Source of the DNA: a virus
Virus record (IMG/VR): IMGVR_UViG_3300018476_000029
Coordinates: 1 to 33,030 of that record
DNA length: 33,030 nucleotides
Strand: one strand, 5' to 3'
The position numbers and the translations under genes are program-made. Positions 3,662-30,309 of the stretch are shown in pieces. Under the pieces are notes generated by a model that was given only the letters and a program-made list of their open reading frames with translations, was not told where the DNA came from and did not search any database. The first letter of the stretch is position 1. The number at the start of each line of letters is the position of its first letter.

Positions 3662-4066
3662 CTAACCCTTCTCAGGGAGGTCTTCGTTTTCTGCCGGCTT
3701 GTCCCAGGTGAGGATCACGGGAGCTTCTGGCTCCTGGTCAAGCTCTTTGACAAGAGCAGCGTGACCAACCGACAGAGCTTCGTTAGCCTGCATCTCAGCA
3801 GTCTGGAAGTCCAGCTTCAGCTGAGAAGTAGTCTCAGAAACGGGCGAGATGTCATTGAGGGAGTGCTTAGCCCAGAGGAAACAGTCCTCGAGGTAGGTCA
3901 TAGAGACCGACTTCGCACGTCCATCAGGAAGCGCCTTGTCAAGCGCCTCAGCAAACCACTTGAAGTTCTGGCGAACGACAGCGCTCAAGTCCGCGTTAGT
4001 TGGAGAACCGTCCGGGGTCAGCCAGTTCGCACCGAAACGCTTGTTGATCTCGTCCTTACCCAGCAT
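3662..4066 (-). CDS. Acb2/Tad1-hairpin domain protein, probable anti-CBASS cyclic-nucleotide sponge
   Basis: A 134-residue protein whose residues about 8-70 match the Acb2 (Tad1-hairpin, DUF7681) pattern. It has KRFGANWLTPDG, then a helix with VRQNFKWFAEALDKAL, then PDGRAKSVSMTYLEDCFLWA; family members typically read PxxREKSLALTKLEEAxxWAN. Characterised Acb2 proteins form hexamers that bind cyclic di- and trinucleotides and so block CBASS (and related) host defence. Residues 71-134 form an acidic, extra C-terminal tail not present in short Acb2 proteins. The ATG at 4066 has GAAGGAG 5 bases upstream; the longer frame reaching 4189 has no such site. The domain call rests on recalled family patterns; the activity is inferred. 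Confidence 0.65.
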   Translation of the reverse strand: MLGKDEINKRFGANWLTPDGSPTNADLSAVVRQNFKWFAEALDKALPDGRAKSVSMTYLEDCFLWAKHSLNDISPVSETTSQLKLDFQTAEMQANEALSVGHAALVKELDQEPEAPVILTWDKPAENEDLPEKG

Positions 4067-4109
4067 TGCATCTCCTTCAAGACGAAGTGAAGGCTGATAC
4101 CTCCAGGAA

Positions 4110-4140
4110 GGAGCCAGAAACCCTCCCAAGTTCTGGCCCC
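4110..4140 (-). terminator. Hairpin between small genes, weak terminator or leader structure
   Basis: GGGGCCAGAA (4131-4140) pairs with TTCTGGCTCC (4110-4119) with one wobble pair and an 11-base loop. Only TTCC follows. It may reduce read-through or shield the ribosome site of the Acb2-like gene. Confidence 0.35.
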
Positions 4141-4157
4141 AACCTGCAAGAATCGGA

Positions 4158-4289
4158 CTACTTCTCCTTCTTGCGGTGTTTCGGCTCATCGGGCTTAACC
4201 TTGCCCTGCTTCTGAAGCTTCTCTTTCAGCTTCTGATGCTCCTCGAGCTCTTTCTTAGTGGGCTCGTACCTATTCGGATTCGTCGGCAT
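4158..4289 (-). CDS. Small Lys/Glu-rich protein (43 aa)
   Basis: A 43-residue, highly charged protein beginning MPTNPNRYEPTKKELEEH, with a continuous Lys/Glu/Gln helix and a basic tail (KHRKKEK). No known domain is seen. The ATG at 4289 has GGAAGGGA 6 bases upstream and lies inside the last codons of the preceding gene (20-base overlap), a normal arrangement here. The composition suggests a DNA- or protein-binding helix, but function is unknown. Confidence 0.65.
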   Translation of the reverse strand: MPTNPNRYEPTKKELEEHQKLKEKLQKQGKVKPDEPKHRKKEK

Positions 4290-5270: not shown

Positions 5271-5485
5271 TACTTCGGACGCTCCGTTACTGAGTGGTCG
5301 ACAGGACAGCTAGACGTACTGACGTAGTCCACCTCAATCTCGTCTTCGTCCACCGTGTATGCCGACACGTTAATTTCGCTGAAGTTGATAGCCATGTCGG
5401 ACGCCAACCTAGTCACAGCACGAACGGCATTCGCTTGTGTGTCTCGAGTTTCCGTCATGATTGTGAGTGACACGCCGTATTTCAT
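5270..5485 (-). CDS. Small early protein (71 aa), unknown function
   Basis: A 71-residue protein with alternating strand and helix character: MKYGVSLTIMTETRDTQANA, then a helix, then NVSAYTVDEDEIEVDYVS. It resembles a compact alpha/beta fold, but I cannot name the family. The ATG at 5485 overlaps the TGA of the candidate ssDNA-binding gene by ATGA; an earlier GTG/ATG at 5509 has no better ribosome site. It is co-transcribed with the replication genes. Confidence 0.65.
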   Translation of the reverse strand: MKYGVSLTIMTETRDTQANAVRAVTRLASDMAINFSEINVSAYTVDEDEIEVDYVSTSSCPVDHSVTERPK

Positions 5486-6012
5486 GACTCGATCGCCCTC
5501 GGCTCCCAATCAACGACCTCTCCGTCGACATAGTCCATAGAGGCACCGATCTCGGGGATGTCTGCGTACTTGAGCTCGAACTCGTCTTCCTTGATGGTAA
5601 CGTACATCAACTTGAGGTAGGCAGAGATGCCGGTCTCCCCCTTGATCGTCCAGTGGTAAGGACGCACCACAAGGTCCACGCTTGCGATCTCAGGAAGGTC
5701 AAGCAGTTCGACAAGGTCCTCCGTAAGCTCGGTACGACCCTTCGAAGTGACCATAACGATCTTCGGCGGACGAGACTTAGCCGAGTACTTGACATTGACC
5801 TTGATGTACAGAAGGTCGGGGTCTCCTTCGTCCCTAGACACGCGACGCTTGACGTTCCAGCCGTCCTGCACCAATTCCTCAGCAAGCTCCTCACCGAGAG
5901 CAAGACAGAAGTTTCGATCCCCAAGACGGTTGTAGTCAGTCTCTCGTCCAGTAAAGTTTCGGAACAGGATGCGGGCACCCTCCATCCGAAGCTCGCCGTC
6001 ATTCTGCGGCAT
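5482..6012 (-). CDS. Candidate ssDNA-binding protein (conserved phage replication-associated protein)
   Basis: A 176-residue protein of a family widespread in phages of actinobacteria. Seen are RMEGARILFRNFTGRE, then GDRNFCLALGEE, DGWNVKRR, RPPKIVMVTSKGRTEL and KGETGISAYLKLMYVTI, ending in an acidic tail after KYADI. Relatives are often annotated as ssDNA-binding proteins with an OB-fold resembling phage Enc34-type SSB. An acidic C-terminus is usual for SSBs and is seen here. Its place a few genes after the polymerase supports a replication role. The ATG at 6012 has AAGGAA 8-9 bases upstream. The SSB call is from recalled annotation, not a visible catalytic motif. Confidence 0.6.
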   Translation of the reverse strand: MPQNDGELRMEGARILFRNFTGRETDYNRLGDRNFCLALGEELAEELVQDGWNVKRRVSRDEGDPDLLYIKVNVKYSAKSRPPKIVMVTSKGRTELTEDLVELLDLPEIASVDLVVRPYHWTIKGETGISAYLKLMYVTIKEDEFELKYADIPEIGASMDYVDGEVVDWEPRAIES

Positions 6013-7002: not shown

Positions 7003-10000
7003 CTAGGCGTTAAAGGTTGCGTACGGTCCGAAGTAATCGATCGTATTGATTGCCTCATTGATAAGGTTCTGGAAGTAAGCCATATCAATGTCCTCAGGCT
7101 TAAGGTTCTTAGCCAGTTCAGCCTCGAGCCACAAGTGACCCTTGGTGCCAGTGACCGAGTACTTCTTGTCTTCCTTGACTCGGTAGAGCACGCCCCCTCC
7201 GACGCCCTCTCGCACGGGTACGAAACGACCGGTACGACCGACAAAGGACATACCTTGCTCGTCCTGGAAGTCTAGGTACATTGCTCCCTGGGTAACCGAC
7301 TTGGTCTCGCAGTAGTCATCGAACGTGACTTCTTCTTTGGTGAAGAGCGTCTTGTAGACGACCGGGTGTTGGAACTGAGCTCCAACAGCTGTCCACTGTG
7401 GAGGACCAGCGCACTCGTTCTTACGAGCGATATACACCGCGTCATTCACAAGACAGAACTCGTCGTAAGTAGCCTCGTGCTCGAATACGTACCCGTACTT
7501 CTCTCCGAACAATATGACTTCCTCAATGATCTCAGGGGTAGCGTCTGGGATCTTGATGGAGTCAGTCTTGATGTGAGCAACCGTGAAGCCTCTGTCCTGG
7601 ACAAAGTGCTTCAGATCGATCATGAAGAGGGCGCCTCGTTTTGCAACGATATTATCCTTATTCCGGTTGTCCCGAAACGGATTGTCGAACTTAGCGGATG
7701 TGAGTCCGTAGACGATATTGATGACGATCTTAAGAGCGAAAGACAGCGCGGAAGAGTCTTCATCAGATCCCAGAAACTCGCTGAGTTTACCTCCAAGCAT
7801 TTTCTTGGCTCGGTCGTAGTCCTTAGCTTTAACAGCCAGACGGGCCTCAACCAAGTCACGGAAGCGTCCTGTGTACTCATCTCCGAATAGGTTAAGCTGT
7901 ATAGCACTCGTCGGATGCATAGACGCCACGTCCAGAAGCGCCACATTCTGATACATGCCTGGCTCTGCATAGACGTAACCTCCTTCTCCGGTTGTCTCAC
8001 CCTTGTAGGTGGACTTACCACGTTCGTGAACGTAGCCCGGAAACTCCTTCTCGAGCTTTGTGTAAACGAAGCTTCTTTGAGGATTACGGTCATCTCCAAA
8101 GACGATCTTCGCAGTGTGTTTCTGTGTGGTGTCGTTCACTGACAAGCCACTCAAACTCGCAAGGATCTTCCTAGCCACAAAGTCCTGAGCACGCTTCTGG
8201 AACACCACCTTGGTGGACAGAACATCATTGGCACAGTACTCAGCCACACGCTCCCAGTCCTTCTCATCGACCGGCTGGTCCCAAGGAAGGTCCATCTCCA
8301 TGTGGTGGATTCCGTACTCGATCTGGAACTTCTTCAAGCCCTGCTTCTTAGAGCTGAAGTCGTAGATGTCTGCGTAAGAGAGGTTGTAAGCCTCTCCGAA
8401 CATCGCAGCGACAGTACCCTCGATGATCTTCTGAGACAGCTTGTAAAGCTGCTCGTTGTCGTACCCGAGGTAACGAGCCCACAGGATGTGGTTGTCGTAC
8501 CTACGGTTGTTGAACCCCACCAGCTTGAACTGGAACAACTGCTCTACTTGCTGACCAGTTGGGTTGATCATGCGAACGACGTTATCGTCATTCTCATAGT
8601 TCCAGCAAACTATGAACAGGTTCGGGTACACCTCGACGTCAAAGAACACCAGGCGTTCGTCCTTGGGTGGTCCCGTCTCCCAAGGGGGATCTTCCCGGTC
8701 TACCGGCTCCTCAGACTTGAAGCGCATGGTCTGCATGACCTTAAGCGCTTGGAGAGGCTGATTAGAGCTGTTGTTCGCGAAGGCCATGATCTTAGACCGA
8801 AGATCTGTGACGTCATAAGTCATCCCCGAGAGATAAGCCTCTTCAAGGATATGATGAATGAAGTCGATCGAGGGCTTCGTCCCAGGGTGGATCTCCTTCC
8901 GCAAGTTTCGAGCGATGAGTTCACGTAGACTCTTCTCGCTCTTAATAGTGTCGGAATTAAGCACCTTCTTCTCCTTCAACGGCAGCCCACTGCTTATCTC
9001 TGCGATTGGAACGTTGTTGCATCTGCTAAGTAAGCGACGGAGAGAAGCGTCTCCGGTGAAGCATTTGACTTCAATCCCGTCACTGTAATGTGTAGCAAGT
9101 CGGGAGGAGTCTTCACCAGTGTAATTGTAATGGAGGTGGATTCCTGATCCGCTTTTACTAAGCTCGGCATAAGTGGGAGGCCATAGAGAAGCCGCATTAA
9201 GATTTCGTTCAAGAGATTTTCGTCCATCATCGTCCTTAATGTCGAAATCTATGACGATATGATTAGTCGGAACTTTGACGTAATGGAGCTTTCGTGAGTC
9301 TACCTCTGAGAGATTTGTCTTAACCAAAGCCCAGCGTTGCGACGGAGTCCCATCCTCTTTGGCTGGTTGTGCTGGATAGTCAGCAAGCTCCAGATCGAGA
9401 AGGGATATCTCCTCGTCCAGTACAAGAGAAAATACCGATCCGTCTTCCTTTTTTGGACTCTTAAACGGTTGTGCCGTAAACCCACGGTAATAACTCCGCA
9501 CTGGCGTTCCGTCCACCGTGTATCGGTCAAGGAACTCGGAGAAATAGTTCCTGAGTTCTTCTCTGACCTTGTACTGAGGCAACGTAAACTCCAGACCCGT
9601 CTCACTGCAGTACTCCTTATACAGTGCGTAAGCCTGTTTGAGACTTACCCCGTCTTGCTGCTTGAAGATATCGTAGTGGGCCTCGACGAAGTTGAAGAAC
9701 ACGTCGGTCTGCAGCATCATCTCGATGGGGCGGTAATTGTTGTAGTAGTTCTTCCCCATGTGACGATAGGTCTCGAGGCAGTGATGTGCGATGGCGCCAA
9801 GCTCGAAGTCCACTCTAGACATCAGCGTGTGGTAGTGACTGGGCTGGAACTTGTTACCCGTTGGTTGAACAACAATCAAGCGCCGGATAATACCTGACTT
9901 GGCGTCTGTAATGCGCACGGGCTTGTTAGTGCCCATGAAAAGAAACGCGTTGACTCGAGAAGAATAACTAGGCTTGTACTTCTCGTTGATCAGCATGTCC

Positions 10001-10749
10001 TCGTGCGCGATTATAGAGTTCAGCTTGGTGTTGTCTTCGATCTTCGACAGATCCCCATCGTGCTGGATAGCAACTAGAGGGTTGGATCGGAAGATCTCGG
10101 TCGCGAACGAGTTGTTGTTTCCCACTAGGGCCTTCGCCTCGAATGAGACGTAGTAACCCTCGAACAGCTTCTGTATAATGTTCAGTATGGTAGACTTCCC
10201 AGTCCCCGCGAGTCCATAAAAGACTAGGAACTTCTGGATCTTTTTCGCGTCCCCCGAGAGAATCGCTCCGATCGCCCATTCGATCTTTGCCCTTTCTTCA
10301 GGATCGTACAGAACACCAATCAGTTCGTCCCAAGCACTGAAGTCGCCAGGCGCTAGGGCGTATGGTAAACGTCGGCTGACATAGTCCGTCTTCTTTGTCA
10401 TGGTGTTGGCGAACGTCAGCTGTTCGTCGAGTTGGTGAGAGTTATCACTTACGTTTTGCAGGAACTTCCTGAACTGAGACCAGCCATTGCTTGTGAACGA
10501 TTGGAGGTATTTAACTACGCATGTAATTCCTTCAGAGGTGAGCTTCTCCGCGTGTTCACGGAGAGCCCGATCTACAAAGCGCTGGACATCGTACTCGTCT
10601 GTAGACCACAGACCTTCCTGCTCATCCCAGATAGCGTAGAACGCACGACCTCGGATCATTAGATCCTTTGCCCGTCCGACCCTGAAATCCGCATAGATCT
10701 CAGTTACGCCTTTGTTGTTCTCTCTGGTGCAGATCTGAAAGAAATCCAT
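7003..10749 (-). CDS. Single-chain SF3 helicase - PrimPol primase - family B DNA polymerase/exonuclease
   Basis: A 1248-residue protein with three replication modules. Residues about 130-330 are an SF3 (D5-like) helicase: Walker A GLAGTGKST (179-187), Walker B region VAIQHDGD (226-233), and motif C FMGTNKP (271-277) followed by the arginine pair at 289-290. Residues about 435-600 look like an archaeo-eukaryotic primase/PrimPol core: IVIDFDI (DxD at 501-503), SGSGIHLHY (533-541) and GIEVKC (558-563). Residues about 700-1240 are a family B polymerase: Exo I FDVEVYP (D704, E706), Exo II FNNRRYD (746-752), Exo III YCANDV (838-843), Pol A LDVASMHP (939-946), Pol B KIVINIVYG (1007-1015) and Pol C IKTDS (1060-1064), where Lys replaces the first Asp of the usual DTDS. 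It could unwind, prime and copy DNA in one chain. The ATG at 10749 has GGGAGGG upstream. Motif assignments are by eye. Confidence 0.85.
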   Translation of the reverse strand: MDFFQICTRENNKGVTEIYADFRVGRAKDLMIRGRAFYAIWDEQEGLWSTDEYDVQRFVDRALREHAEKLTSEGITCVVKYLQSFTSNGWSQFRKFLQNVSDNSHQLDEQLTFANTMTKKTDYVSRRLPYALAPGDFSAWDELIGVLYDPEERAKIEWAIGAILSGDAKKIQKFLVFYGLAGTGKSTILNIIQKLFEGYYVSFEAKALVGNNNSFATEIFRSNPLVAIQHDGDLSKIEDNTKLNSIIAHEDMLINEKYKPSYSSRVNAFLFMGTNKPVRITDAKSGIIRRLIVVQPTGNKFQPSHYHTLMSRVDFELGAIAHHCLETYRHMGKNYYNNYRPIEMMLQTDVFFNFVEAHYDIFKQQDGVSLKQAYALYKEYCSETGLEFTLPQYKVREELRNYFSEFLDRYTVDGTPVRSYYRGFTAQPFKSPKKEDGSVFSLVLDEEISLLDLELADYPAQPAKEDGTPSQRWALVKTNLSEVDSRKLHYVKVPTNHIVIDFDIKDDDGRKSLERNLNAASLWPPTYAELSKSGSGIHLHYNYTGEDSSRLATHYSDGIEVKCFTGDASLRRLLSRCNNVPIAEISSGLPLKEKKVLNSDTIKSEKSLRELIARNLRKEIHPGTKPSIDFIHHILEEAYLSGMTYDVTDLRSKIMAFANNSSNQPLQALKVMQTMRFKSEEPVDREDPPWETGPPKDERLVFFDVEVYPNLFIVCWNYENDDNVVRMINPTGQQVEQLFQFKLVGFNNRRYDNHILWARYLGYDNEQLYKLSQKIIEGTVAAMFGEAYNLSYADIYDFSSKKQGLKKFQIEYGIHHMEMDLPWDQPVDEKDWERVAEYCANDVLSTKVVFQKRAQDFVARKILASLSGLSVNDTTQKHTAKIVFGDDRNPQRSFVYTKLEKEFPGYVHERGKSTYKGETTGEGGYVYAEPGMYQNVALLDVASMHPTSAIQLNLFGDEYTGRFRDLVEARLAVKAKDYDRAKKMLGGKLSEFLGSDEDSSALSFALKIVINIVYGLTSAKFDNPFRDNRNKDNIVAKRGALFMIDLKHFVQDRGFTVAHIKTDSIKIPDATPEIIEEVILFGEKYGYVFEHEATYDEFCLVNDAVYIARKNECAGPPQWTAVGAQFQHPVVYKTLFTKEEVTFDDYCETKSVTQGAMYLDFQDEQGMSFVGRTGRFVPVREGVGGGVLYRVKEDKKYSVTGTKGHLWLEAELAKNLKPEDIDMAYFQNLINEAINTIDYFGPYATFNA

Positions 10750-10765: not shown

Positions 10766-11311
10766 CTATACACGTTCCAGGACATATTCGCTCATCTGGT
10801 ACCAGAGCTCTATATGTCTCTGATCGTTAGGTGTGTTTTTAAGTGGGAACAGACCACCATCTCCGCTTGGGTGGTAGGTCCTGTATATGATTCGCTCAAG
10901 GATCTCATCGACCTCTAGTTCGGTATACCGCATAGCCCTCGGGTTAAGGCGTTCGTCGGTATAGCCGCCAAGACCAATGTTCTCCATGAGATGCCAGAAC
11001 CATCCCGAAGGTTCACCCTCGGCCACAAAGGCAAGCCTTCGGGACAGTCCGACTAAAAGTTCCAGCATGGAACACCCAAGGTGCAGCCAATCTGGATCTA
11101 CATCATTGAGTCCTTCGTCATGGACGAACTCGTATCTTAGCTCTCTTCCGTCTTCGACCCGGTTATCGTCATTAGGGACGATCCATACGAACTCTTTTGT
11201 GAAGAGCTTTTTGAGGACCTTCCAATAGGTGCGATGCAGACCTTTGATTCGAGGATCGCCGACTTGACTGTAGAGCCACACGAAGTAGGTCTCATCAAGC
11301 GGCTCTTTCAT
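10766..11311 (-). CDS. Conserved phage protein of unknown function (181 aa)
   Basis: A 181-residue soluble protein of a family I recall near DUF6353 genes in Gram-positive phages. Conserved-looking stretches are FVWLYSQVGDPRIKG..RTYW, EFVWIVPNDDNRVEDGRELR, WLHLGCSMLELLVGLSRRLAF and GLFPL..TPNDQR..ELWYQM. The many Trp, Asp and Arg residues suggest a folded domain, possibly an enzyme, but no known active site is evident. The ATG at 11311 overlaps the stop of the membrane-anchored gene before it (TGATG), which links the two. It is the last gene before the replication protein. Confidence 0.7.
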   Translation of the reverse strand: MKEPLDETYFVWLYSQVGDPRIKGLHRTYWKVLKKLFTKEFVWIVPNDDNRVEDGRELRYEFVHDEGLNDVDPDWLHLGCSMLELLVGLSRRLAFVAEGEPSGWFWHLMENIGLGGYTDERLNPRAMRYTELEVDEILERIIYRTYHPSGDGGLFPLKNTPNDQRHIELWYQMSEYVLERV

Positions 11312-11969: not shown

Positions 11970-12860
11970 CTAGAAGTTGTCCCAGATAACGCCGTCGACG
12001 TTGAAGTCGAGCCAGATTGAATTCTCTTGCCCGGTTGCGAACAGCATTCCCGCGGCCGAGTCTCCGTCGAAGAACCCGAAGTCCACGTGGTCATCGCCCT
12101 TGCCGAGGAACCACCCAACCGCCTGACCTGCCTTTGTGATAGGCAAGCCAAGGAAGGTCAAGACCTCATTAAGGAAGATATAGCCTCGAGAGTTCAGGAG
12201 GTCGTTCGCATAGTTCTGCTGGCACTGCAGGAACAGCTGGTTTCGGAAGTGCTCGGACGACCAGCTAGCTGAGGTATCCCTGGAGAACAGCACCGCGTAG
12301 CCAGAGAGTCCATTAGGCCCGACACCCTTGCTGGTGCGAACCACTGGGCCTTCCGCAGTCTCCTCGACATACTCTCGGTCCACCAGACCAAGACGTAGAT
12401 CACGAGCCTTCTCGGGTCCGTATTCGCTCTCCACCCGCTTCTGGAACTCTCGGTAACCCCTGTCGAGAGCCGCGTAAGCCGCGGTGACAGCCATGTTCCT
12501 ACGAGTAAGAACAAGATGAGCCCCGGAGAGAGAAGCGATAGAAACAACACCCACGGCAACGGCAGGTGTGTACATGACCGCGACACGAAGTCCTCCACGA
12601 ACCTTCGCCTTGAGGATATCCCGATGACGATCCTCGTCGCTGTAGTCCCGGTCCTCGAAGGCCTGGATCTTCTCAACCTCGCGGTCCGTCTCATCGAGAA
12701 CATCGCTCAGCTTGAGGGTCGCCCGACTAGCCAAAACGACAGTGCTCACGACTCCCACGATGCCTGCTGTAAACAGAATAGCTGGAGAGTGCTTTCGGAC
12801 GGACAGAAGCTGCCGTCCAACTTTGCTCGTGACCACGTTGGCCAGAGACTTGAAGTCCAT
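11970..12860 (-). CDS. DUF6353 family membrane protein, paralogue A
   Basis: A 296-residue protein with two clear hydrophobic segments, SPAILFTAGIVGVVSTVVL (about 25-43) and MYTPAVAVGVVSIASLSG (about 96-113), followed by a helix TRRNMAVTAAYAALDRGYRE and a C-terminal domain ending VDGVIWDNF. The arrangement matches DUF6353, a phage family of unknown function. A second member is encoded at 15100-15855: both share an NSP/HSP-x-ILxxxxxVG opening and a VAAMTAAY / MAVTAAY helix, but the C-terminal halves differ. The ATG at 12860 has AAGGAG 5 bases upstream. It is probably a membrane protein whose large C-terminal part faces the cytoplasm. Confidence 0.75.
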   Translation of the reverse strand: MDFKSLANVVTSKVGRQLLSVRKHSPAILFTAGIVGVVSTVVLASRATLKLSDVLDETDREVEKIQAFEDRDYSDEDRHRDILKAKVRGGLRVAVMYTPAVAVGVVSIASLSGAHLVLTRRNMAVTAAYAALDRGYREFQKRVESEYGPEKARDLRLGLVDREYVEETAEGPVVRTSKGVGPNGLSGYAVLFSRDTSASWSSEHFRNQLFLQCQQNYANDLLNSRGYIFLNEVLTFLGLPITKAGQAVGWFLGKGDDHVDFGFFDGDSAAGMLFATGQENSIWLDFNVDGVIWDNF

Positions 12861-15099: not shown

Positions 15100-15855
15100 C
15101 TAGATTCGGTCGTAATTACGGAGTGGAACCGTGTGATACTCGATGGATACGCACGGGCGTCCATCAGAGGCGATAACGCCTGTGAACTTCAGTTCGAGCT
15201 GTTTGTCGAGGTTCCAACCAATATCGTCCGAAACACTAGTGTGAGCCAGTTCGATCAGGTCGTAGAATTCCGACAGTGAAATATGGTGGTCGTGGTTCAG
15301 TCGGTAGTTGATCCGGTTTTCAGCCTTACGTAAAGCCTCTACGTTACTGCTGAAATATCGTCCCGTATACGCCTCGTAACAGAGAACATCGCCGTACCCA
15401 ATCATCATGATTTCGGAGGAGGTAGGAGGCTTAGAATTCACTTTGTCTTGAGTGATCTCAGCTCTTACCTGCTCCTCTTTTTGAGACCCGATCCTTTCGA
15501 CGATCTTGTCTTGATACTGTTCGAAAGCTTTCTCTGCTAGCGAGTACGCTGCGGTCATAGCTGCAACTCGACGGACACCAATACGGTTCCCTAGAATTAT
15601 GCAGGTAACCGTCAGCAAACCAGAACCAACCGCTGGAATATAAAGCTTCCAAGTTAGGTCCACCTTGTCTCTGCCAGTTAAGGGATCGCTAGACATTTCG
15701 TTCTCGGCGAGGATTTCGCAGGCTTTGTATGCCGCTTTCCCTGTCAGAAGGGCTGTAGTTACAGTTCCGACAACTGCTATTCCGGTGAGGATGGTCGGTG
15801 AGTTATCAGTAAGGAGCTTTCCAGCTCTCTTAGTAAACTCACGTAAAATCATCAT
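15100..15855 (-). CDS. DUF6353 family membrane protein, paralogue B
   Basis: A 251-residue protein with two hydrophobic segments, SPTILTGIAVVGTVTTALL (about 19-37) and YIPAVGSGLLTVTCIILG (about 72-89), followed by RRVAAMTAAYSLAEKAFEQY and a C-terminal domain with LSEFYDLIELAHTSVSDDIG, which occurs in other DUF6353 proteins. It is homologous to 11970-12860 in the N-terminal half and differs after it. The ATG at 15855 has GAGGAG 4 bases upstream; a second ATG follows at once and has 7-base spacing. It overlaps the preceding gene by 17 bases. Function unknown. Confidence 0.75.
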   Translation of the reverse strand: MMILREFTKRAGKLLTDNSPTILTGIAVVGTVTTALLTGKAAYKACEILAENEMSSDPLTGRDKVDLTWKLYIPAVGSGLLTVTCIILGNRIGVRRVAAMTAAYSLAEKAFEQYQDKIVERIGSQKEEQVRAEITQDKVNSKPPTSSEIMMIGYGDVLCYEAYTGRYFSSNVEALRKAENRINYRLNHDHHISLSEFYDLIELAHTSVSDDIGWNLDKQLELKFTGVIASDGRPCVSIEYHTVPLRNYDRI

Positions 15856-27499: not shown

Positions 27500-28216
27500 C
27501 TAGAACGAACTTATCGTATAAGTGTGGGTGTCGATTTGAACAACGGAAGACCAGGATATAGTCCATAGATTAGGATCGGTCTCGAAGACGACATCGTCCG
27601 GACCCTCTATCTCCCATAGACCACCACCGAGATCAGTAACTCGAAGCGTGGCGTTAGCTTCGAACAGCGTTAGAACTTCATCAGGCAATGGAAGACGTGC
27701 GTCAGCAGAATCAGACCCATAGATGATGTCTTCTAGAGCTTCTATTGCTGAGTCATATGCAACATCTGTGTCTATGACCAAATGCGAGATCCTACCATAC
27801 CCGGTCATTGCTTCTGGCTTACAGGTGAAGCCCCATCTATGAATCTCCGGGTCCAATGGGGACTGTCTGTAGGAATATCCCTCCGGGGAAATTCGCACAT
27901 TGTAAACCAGATGAATATAGGAACCAGTCCGATAACTGAATCCAAAATTACTAGGGCGAACCGGCACTAGAACGTTGGAATAGAAAGTTTCAGGATATGA
28001 GTAAGCCTCAATAGACCCGGCGAACTTTCCAGCACCTCGGTGGTTCCTATAGGCGACTCCATCAATATACAGAGTCTTATCGTCGATGTCTTCTGGCTGC
28101 TCTATGACTGAGGTCAACCCATTCCAGACTTCGCCTGAGCCCGAAAGCGGATAATACACGCCTTGGTCTAGATCAGCCTGATACGGCCTTGTTTGATCCC
28201 AAATAAGCCTGGAAAT
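27500..28216 (-). CDS. Third major-tail-protein paralogue, probable AUU start
   Basis: A 238-residue protein homologous to the major tail protein: VWNGLTSVIEQPED, LYIDGVAYRN, GSIEAYSYPETF, FGFSYRTG, IHLVYN, HLVIDTDVAYDSAIEALEDI and IYGSD...LPLPDEVLTLF. It ends in an unrelated tail of about 50 residues (RVTDLGGGLWEIEG...). The first normal start is a GTG at 28159, but reading upstream continues the alignment: SRLIWDQTRPYQADLDQGV aligns with ARLVWD...ETGVDRGV of the second paralogue. The codon that aligns with the paralogues' Met is ATT at 28216, with AGGAGG 9 bases before it and no ATG, GTG or TTG near. A CTG at 28222 is the alternative. Role: tail tube, decoration or fibre base. Confidence 0.7.
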   Translation of the reverse strand: MSRLIWDQTRPYQADLDQGVYYPLSGSGEVWNGLTSVIEQPEDIDDKTLYIDGVAYRNHRGAGKFAGSIEAYSYPETFYSNVLVPVRPSNFGFSYRTGSYIHLVYNVRISPEGYSYRQSPLDPEIHRWGFTCKPEAMTGYGRISHLVIDTDVAYDSAIEALEDIIYGSDSADARLPLPDEVLTLFEANATLRVTDLGGGLWEIEGPDDVVFETDPNLWTISWSSVVQIDTHTYTISSF

Positions 28217-28230
28217 GGTCAGTCACCTCC

Positions 28231-28869
28231 TCATGGAGTGAACAGGGTTAGAAGCTCGTCTGGATCTGGTAGTCTAGACGCCTCAGCATCGGTTCCGTAC
28301 AGAATATCTTCGAAGTCAGCGAGGATCTCTGGATCTGAATAACGGGAATCGACAAACAAATGAGCGGTTCTCCTATAACCTGTAATGACAGGTGGAAGAC
28401 ACGTAATATCCCAGCTGAAATCTGTCGGCTCAACCGTATTCGTTCTAGTCTTGTTGTTCCTAGTTGGCGGGGAAGCTAGAGCGCCGTACACTAGATGAAC
28501 TTTGTAAGCGTAGTCAGGCCCGTCAATGCCACGGCCGATGTTGGTCCTGTAGGAGAATCCGAACGCAATTCGCTTCTGGTGTGGAACAAACAGTCCGTTT
28601 TGAGGCTGAACTGTTCCATCACAAAAGGCAAACTCAGTGGGAGTCGAGAAAGCCACGATTGTAGCTTCGAACTCTTCAGCCGTTGCGAGATTCCCGTACT
28701 TGATTCCATCGATGTAAAGAGGGCGAGGTTCGCCTCCGTTAGGGTTCTCAGTTACCGAAGTAAGACCGTTCCAAGGAACCCCATCGAAACTTGGGGCGAA
28801 AAGAACGCCTCTATCTACGCCGGTTTCGTAATAGCGTTCCGTCATGGTGTCCCAAACAAGACGTGCCAT
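28231..28869 (-). CDS. Second major-tail-protein paralogue (212 aa)
   Basis: A 212-residue protein clearly related to the major tail protein. The N-terminal 26 residues (MARLVWDTMTERYYETGVDR...) match that protein at 16 of 26 positions, followed by PWNGLTSVTENPNGG, YIDGIKYGN, EFAFCDGT, FGFSYRT, YKVHLVYGALASP and LYGTD...LPDPDELLTLF. It ends at LLTLFTP and so lacks the C-terminal Ig-like domain of the first copy. It may form part of the tail tube, the tail end or a decoration. The ATG at 28869 has GAGGGGG 5 bases upstream. Its stop lies 14 bases before the next paralogue. Confidence 0.8.
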   Translation of the reverse strand: MARLVWDTMTERYYETGVDRGVLFAPSFDGVPWNGLTSVTENPNGGEPRPLYIDGIKYGNLATAEEFEATIVAFSTPTEFAFCDGTVQPQNGLFVPHQKRIAFGFSYRTNIGRGIDGPDYAYKVHLVYGALASPPTRNNKTRTNTVEPTDFSWDITCLPPVITGYRRTAHLFVDSRYSDPEILADFEDILYGTDAEASRLPDPDELLTLFTP

Positions 28870-29442: not shown

Positions 29443-30309
29443 TCAGCTGAAGTCGATCAGCCAGTCGTCGTCCGCACCCTCTGGGAAGTAGTAACCAACC
29501 GCCGGGTGTGCAGTAACCATGGTGTCCGCGGTGATGTGCACGTCGCCAGTGACGACCTCGCCCGCGATCTTGTAGATGACACCAGTAACCGACGGGATGG
29601 TGATGTCGTCGGTGGTGCTGTTGTAGGTCGGCTCCGTCGGGGTGACCGAGGTAATCGTGCCGTCGAAGATCGCGAAGACCTCGTCGGGCAGGGGCATCCT
29701 CGGGTCAACACCGGTAGTGCCGTACAGGATCAACTCAAGCGCTGCCAAAGCAGTTGCATCCACCTGGTTCGACTGAATCGTCAGGCTGGCCGTTGGCTTG
29801 TGGTCGGTGACTGCCACGGGAACCGTGGTGACCTCCCAGCTGAAGGTGATGGCCTCAGGCGAGTCGTTGACGGTGTTGTAAGCCTTCTCGGAGGGAGAAG
29901 CAGTAGCACCGTAAATCAAGTGCAGCTTGTAACCGAGCTCGGTCGCCAACACATCGTTGCCGACGAGAGAACGGTAAGCAAAGCCGAACGTGCGGCGAGG
30001 CTGCTGGCCAATGAGAACACCAGGAGACAGCTCCGCAGAGCCATCACACTGACCGAACTCGTCAGGGTAGGTGTAGGCCTCGATGGTTGCGCCGAACTCC
30101 TCCAGCGAAACCAGGTTCAGGTACTTGATGTTGTCAGCGTAAGTCGGAGTCACCTCAGCGCCGGTGGGCGCCTCAGTAACAGACGTCAAGCCATTCCAGG
30201 CGTGACCGATGATGTACTCACCATCGTTGTTCGGAAGGTAAAGGACCCCGTGATCGACACCTGTCTCATAGAAACGCTGGCCGGTCAGGTCCCACTGCAG
30301 AGCAGTCAC
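29443..30309 (-). CDS. Major tail protein with C-terminal Ig-like domain (GTG start)
   Basis: A 288-residue protein forming the tail tube. Residues about 1-215 are the tube domain: MTALQWDLTGQRFYETGVDH, HAWNGLTSVTEAPTGAEV, FGFAYRSLVG and YKLHLIYGATASP, ending LPDEVFAIF. Residues about 225-288 are a separate beta domain (ITIPSVTGVIYK, HITADTMVTAHPAVGYYFPE, DDDWLIDF), which resembles the C-terminus of the capsid fusion at 30955-32976. The start is a GTG at 30309 with GAGGAG 7 bases upstream. It is followed by the chaperone and two paralogues. Confidence 0.85.
   Translation of the reverse strand: MTALQWDLTGQRFYETGVDHGVLYLPNNDGEYIIGHAWNGLTSVTEAPTGAEVTPTYADNIKYLNLVSLEEFGATIEAYTYPDEFGQCDGSAELSPGVLIGQQPRRTFGFAYRSLVGNDVLATELGYKLHLIYGATASPSEKAYNTVNDSPEAITFSWEVTTVPVAVTDHKPTASLTIQSNQVDATALAALELILYGTTGVDPRMPLPDEVFAIFDGTITSVTPTEPTYNSTTDDITIPSVTGVIYKIAGEVVTGDVHITADTMVTAHPAVGYYFPEGADDDWLIDFS

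Follow-up and report, generated by a model that had tools for sequence, protein, structure and literature searches.

A predicted viral helicase-primase-polymerase of the HelPrimPolB family resembles phage 1706 GP55 in architecture and active sites

Results

The replicase gene and its neighbors

The DNA analyzed here, which we call the window, comprises the 33,030 bases of a virus record of the IMG/VR type, and one of its genes encodes a protein of 1248 residues (Table 1). This ORF had been picked out earlier, with the correct length but no strand, in a reading of the sequence alone. It lies on the minus strand, and the plus strand over the same positions is broken by many stops. The motifs named in that sequence-only reading occur in the order it gave: the Walker A sequence GLAGTGKST begins at residue 179, DFD occupies residues 501-503 and SGSGIHLHY residues 533-541. 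Farther along the chain, exonuclease motif I (FFDVEVY) begins at residue 702, and the family B polymerase (PolB) motifs A (LLDVASMHP), B (ALKIVINIVYG) and C (HIKTDS) are found at 938, 1005 and 1059, respectively. Residues 1-1246 matched PHROG 4210 ('DNA polymerase') with a score of 2021.9 bits. Given this score and the presence of the protein as a full-length single ORF in 84 of 88 related viral loci, the ORF and its fusion are far beyond chance.

The predicted tail, holin and head-protease genes of the window mark an ordinary tailed phage. Also encoded are an exonuclease, a phrog_62 DNA helicase and an HNH protein, and the putative single-strand binding protein (SSB) belongs to the same Pfam family as GP66, the SSB of phage 1706. 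The genes searched in this 33 kb record, which is possibly incomplete, included no further polymerase or primase.

Table 1 Replicase gene, its domains and the adjacent genes
Feature	Position	Strand	Basis
HelPrimPolB-type replicase gene	7003..10749	minus	single 1248-codon ORF, uninterrupted
N-terminal region and SF3 (D5/P4-like) helicase, residues 1-435	9445..10749	minus	profile and structure matches
AEP/PrimPol catalytic domain, residues 445-595; D501-x-D503, S533-G-x-G-x-H538, E560	8965..9417	minus	model matches, invariant residues
Alpha-helical domain (aHD), residues 596-690, four predicted helices	8680..8964	minus	model and GP55 alignment
Family B DNA polymerase with 3'-5' exonuclease, residues 693-1248	7006..8673	minus	PHROG 4210, structure matches
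Putative SSB (PF24083)	5482..6012	minus	downstream of replicase; Pfam match; homologue in 85/89 loci
Gene of unknown function (phrog_4678)	10766..11311	minus	directly upstream of replicase; homologue in 84/89 loci

The helicase domain

By Pfam and NCBIfam the helicase part alone was recognized well, the Prim-Pol and PolB signals being weak. Pfam DUF5906 matched residues 177-290 above its cut-off, and TIGR01613 (the P4-type primase C-terminal region of NCBIfam) matched the helicase part below its cut-off. Residues 101-415 of the structural model matched the SaPI5 primase-helicase with a Z score of 21.1, and nearly the same part of the model also matched the African swine fever virus (ASFV) PrimPol and the pox D5/E5 helicases. 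The Walker A residues K185 and T187 and Walker B D231 are in place, and their positions suggest N275 as the sensor and R289 and R290 as arginine-finger candidates; these residues are invariant in the 86 sequences compared. Thus, the SF3 helicase proposed from the sequence was borne out by profiles, structure and conservation.

The AEP and helical domains

The assignment of an AEP/PrimPol core was the least certain part of the sequence-only reading, which had named the absence of a structural match to AEP primases as grounds for giving it up. The replicase scored 14.5 bits against the Pfam Prim-Pol profile, below the cut-off of 22.8, and a PDB sequence search with residues 430-692 matched nothing. 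Hence, confirmation of the AEP fold had to come from comparing structures. An AlphaFold model of residues 430-692, built with 45 relatives, had a pLDDT of 89, and its best matches among solved structures were those of NrS-1 PrimPol (Foldseek E value of 1.6e-6). A VIA comparison of the model with NrS-1 PrimPol gave a Z score of 8.8 over 143 residues at 3.8 A, and comparison with pRN1 ORF904 gave a Z score of 6.2. The structural match was therefore found and the AEP call stands. In the model DFD ends the strand 497-502, HLHY of motif II lies on the strand 537-543 and E560 lies on the strand 559-563, predicted placements that agree with the expected AEP arrangement. D501, D503, H538 and E560 are invariant in the 86 sequences.

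Between the AEP domain and the polymerase lies an alpha-helical accessory domain that the earlier reading overlooked. Its residues Y645 and F657 correspond to Y655 and F667 of GP55, in which this domain is required for priming (PMC12205980). On structure comparison of the AEP-aHD model the helical part had no convincing relative, a result that says little by itself.

The polymerase domain and the whole chain

Model residues of about 697-1245 matched KOD, Pol alpha and E. coli Pol II with Z scores of about 15-16.5, and Foldseek agreed on a PolB assignment. The residues expected of a proofreading enzyme are present in both the exonuclease (D704, E706, D752 and D842) and the polymerase (D940, K1007, Y1014 and D1063). 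Together with the PHROG 4210 match and residue conservation, these matches upheld the earlier call of a PolB with a 3'-5' exonuclease, as well as the order of helicase, AEP and PolB on one chain. Only 67 residues separate D940 of motif A from K1007 of motif B, which would leave little room for the TPR1 insertion of a protein-primed PolB of the phi29 type; we take the phi29 spacing to be about twice that length. The model of residues 101-1248 had a mean pLDDT of 80.6 and a pTM of 0.49, its domains being linked by poorly predicted stretches at about 431-457 and 681-693.

The sequence of motif C is KTDS rather than DTDS, and we considered whether this might signal inactivation. This was rejected because K1061, T1062 and D1063 are present in all 86 sequences and the active GP55 also has KTDS.

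Relationship to HelPrimPolB and GP55

HelPrimPolB is a group of family B DNA polymerases named in 2020 by Kazlauskas et al., in which an SF3 helicase and a PrimPol domain precede PolB on the same chain and motif C is divergent (PMC7544198). The window protein has the same fusion and its own divergent motif C, and we found no difference from the group. In 2025 Zhang et al. purified a member from Lactococcus phage 1706, GP55 (ORF55), which has helicase, RNA primase, polymerase and 3'-5' exonuclease activities; its unwinding is driven by UTP or dTTP, it forms dimers, and its primase and polymerase act in trans (PMC12205980).

We took the ORF55 sequence from the phage 1706 record and aligned it to the window protein. 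The two are collinear end to end, with 499 of 1221 aligned residues identical (41%), and share the order SF3 helicase, PriS-like AEP, aHD and exonuclease-PolB as well as the KTDS of motif C. They differ in length (1248 residues versus 1317), the longer C-terminal polymerase region being that of GP55. The GP55 mutant residues K189, D509, D712/E714 and D949 map to K185, D503, D704/E706 and D940, and all residues of the GP55 mutational work that we mapped, Y655 and F667 included, are identical in the window protein. Across the 86 sequences the mapped positions are invariant save Y645 (tyrosine in 75 and phenylalanine in 11). Among all the catalytic residues checked, substitutions were seen only at S533, G536, Y645, N747 and K1007.

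The features by which we recognized a HelPrimPolB/GP55-type protein were an N-terminal SF3 helicase with intact Walker motifs, a central AEP/PriS-like domain with DxD, sGxGxH and an acidic third motif, a helical domain after the AEP with the conserved tyrosine and phenylalanine, and a C-terminal PolB with 3'-5' exonuclease and every motif present, all on one chain collinear with GP55. Each was found. A protein of the NrS-1/ORF904 type would have its AEP N-terminal to the helicase and would lack PolB, whereas here the helicase (101-415) precedes the AEP (445-595) and PolB (693-1248). The AEP fold is shared with NrS-1 PrimPol and pRN1 ORF904 and the D5-like SF3 helicase fold with SaPI5 and NrS-1. 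In NrS-1 PrimPol, ORF904 and the SaPI5 primase-helicase the primase presumably precedes the helicase and no PolB domain is present; in contrast, the window protein has the helicase first and a proofreading PolB after the AEP.

Judged by its domains and its end-to-end similarity to GP55, the window protein is an unexceptional HelPrimPolB, a kind already known and with one relative tested biochemically. The rarity implied by the earlier reading was mistaken, as the family has a name (PMC7544198), a tested member (PMC12205980) and hundreds of sequenced relatives.

Conservation and spread

A tblastn search of phage records gave 385 matches at an E value of 1e-5, 252 of which extend over 80% or more of the query. 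Many of the matches, from phages of Gordonia, Arthrobacter and Streptomyces, bear the annotation 'DNA primase/polymerase'; among the matches listed, those of Enterococcus and Pseudomonas cover the polymerase part only. The Gordonia and Rhodococcus phage copies are 63-65% identical to the window protein, and the phrog_4210 proteins Gordonia phage Perkunas gene 64 and Rhodococcus phage ReqiPepy6 gp072 align over their full length at 64-65% identity. From these actinophage proteins the window protein differs only in host and in sequence divergence, a matter of degree.

IMG/VR holds more than 500 relatives. The whole protein was a single ORF in all of the 88 IMG/VR loci read except four, which are cut by contig ends. 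Relatives also occur on contigs of bacterial genomes, mostly clostridial, where 67 of 80 form full single ORFs (48-61% identical); most of the other 13 are truncated at contig ends. A search of plasmids yielded a single match, partial and confined to the polymerase part. Full single ORFs thus occur among phage, IMG/VR and bacterial-contig relatives, and on these sequences the helicase-primase-polymerase fusion is widespread and stable.

Discussion

By analogy with GP55, which it matches in architecture and active sites, the window protein is in all probability the genome replicase of its own phage. The same analogy makes it very likely an active, self-sufficient replicase that would share the activities of GP55, and we infer for it the part of main replicase in its phage. 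The SF3 helicase would open the duplex, the AEP and helical domains would lay short RNA primers on the single-stranded template, the PolB domain would extend these primers with proofreading and the phage SSB would cover the single strands. There is some chance, well short of even, that the actinophage-like branch is a self-contained replisome of one or two subunits with a biochemistry unlike that of GP55, such as ATP-driven unwinding or another priming site.

The protein might instead serve only initiation or repair, with the host PolIII doing most of the replication. We found no genetics for the replicase family and the 33 kb contig is possibly incomplete, both of which leave room for such a role. 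However, a proofreading PolB with all its catalytic residues kept stands alongside a helicase, a primase and a conserved SSB gene, and 50 nM GP55 fully replicated 10 nM ssM13 DNA (7249 nt) in 0.2 min (PMC12205980). We consider so restricted a role quite unlikely.

Still less probable is that the AEP domain is a degenerate remnant, so that another protein primes and the chain acts as a helicase-polymerase only. The Prim-Pol score below cut-off and the lack of a PDB sequence match for residues 430-692 would fit a decayed domain, but the catalytic D501, D503, H538 and E560 do not vary in the 86 sequences, the model matches PrimPol structures and the GP55 counterpart of the domain works as an RNA primase, D509A having served as the primase-deficient mutant of GP55 (PMC12205980). 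That separate helicase, primase and polymerase genes were joined by an error of assembly or frame is scarcely credible: the window is an IMG/VR-type record and not an isolate, but the protein is one ORF throughout most viral and bacterial loci, and the cultured Gordonia, Arthrobacter, Streptomyces and Rhodococcus phages that match over the full length refute an artefact.

A phage replicase that unwinds, primes and copies with proofreading on a single chain is attractive both as a model of a minimal replisome and as an enzyme for isothermal amplification, a point already made with GP55. The present case broadens the picture: phages of Gordonia, Arthrobacter, Streptomyces and Rhodococcus, together with contigs from bacterial genomes, carry a large branch. 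The GP55 paper stresses human-associated phages (PMC12205980); given this branch, the family is not confined to them. The branch also provides many diverse enzymes for comparison.

Additional observations on the window and its relatives

An Rfam search of the window found nothing. Enrichment of CCAAC, the GP55 priming site, was considered and rejected as composition: there are 91 matches versus 59 expected from dinucleotide shuffles, but a null of this kind gives z > 4 for 42 of the 1024 pentamers, and with a third-order background 82 are expected (z of 1.0) and the excess is gone.

Several other genes, all on the minus strand, deserve mention. The 175-residue product of 3662-4189 matched the Pfam Acb2/Tad1 hairpin domain with 29.7 bits (cut-off 27). 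Acb2/Tad1 is a family of phage sponges that bind immune signaling nucleotides, and the product is possibly an anti-CBASS or anti-Thoeris protein. The gene at 973-1497 encodes an HNH endonuclease with a NUMOD4 motif, likely a homing endonuclease. Three nearby genes (27500-28159, 28231-28869 and 29443-30309) match the major tail protein family phrog_2645. The genes at 11970-12860 and 15100-15855 are phrog_2152 paralogues, both with homologues in more than 80 of 89 loci, and the former also matches DUF6353.

In two bacterial-genome relatives (L146:6347-7489 and L129:2267-2802) the replicase is split between exonuclease and polymerase, at about query residue 899, with an insertion. The upstream halves both end in YTDLATGEQS, and Rfam gave no intron match. 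The L146 insertion contains a 203-residue ORF that by eye looks HNH-like and a 144-residue ORF that looks BRO-like. In a third relative, L161, the replicase is also split near residue 899, by a stop only.
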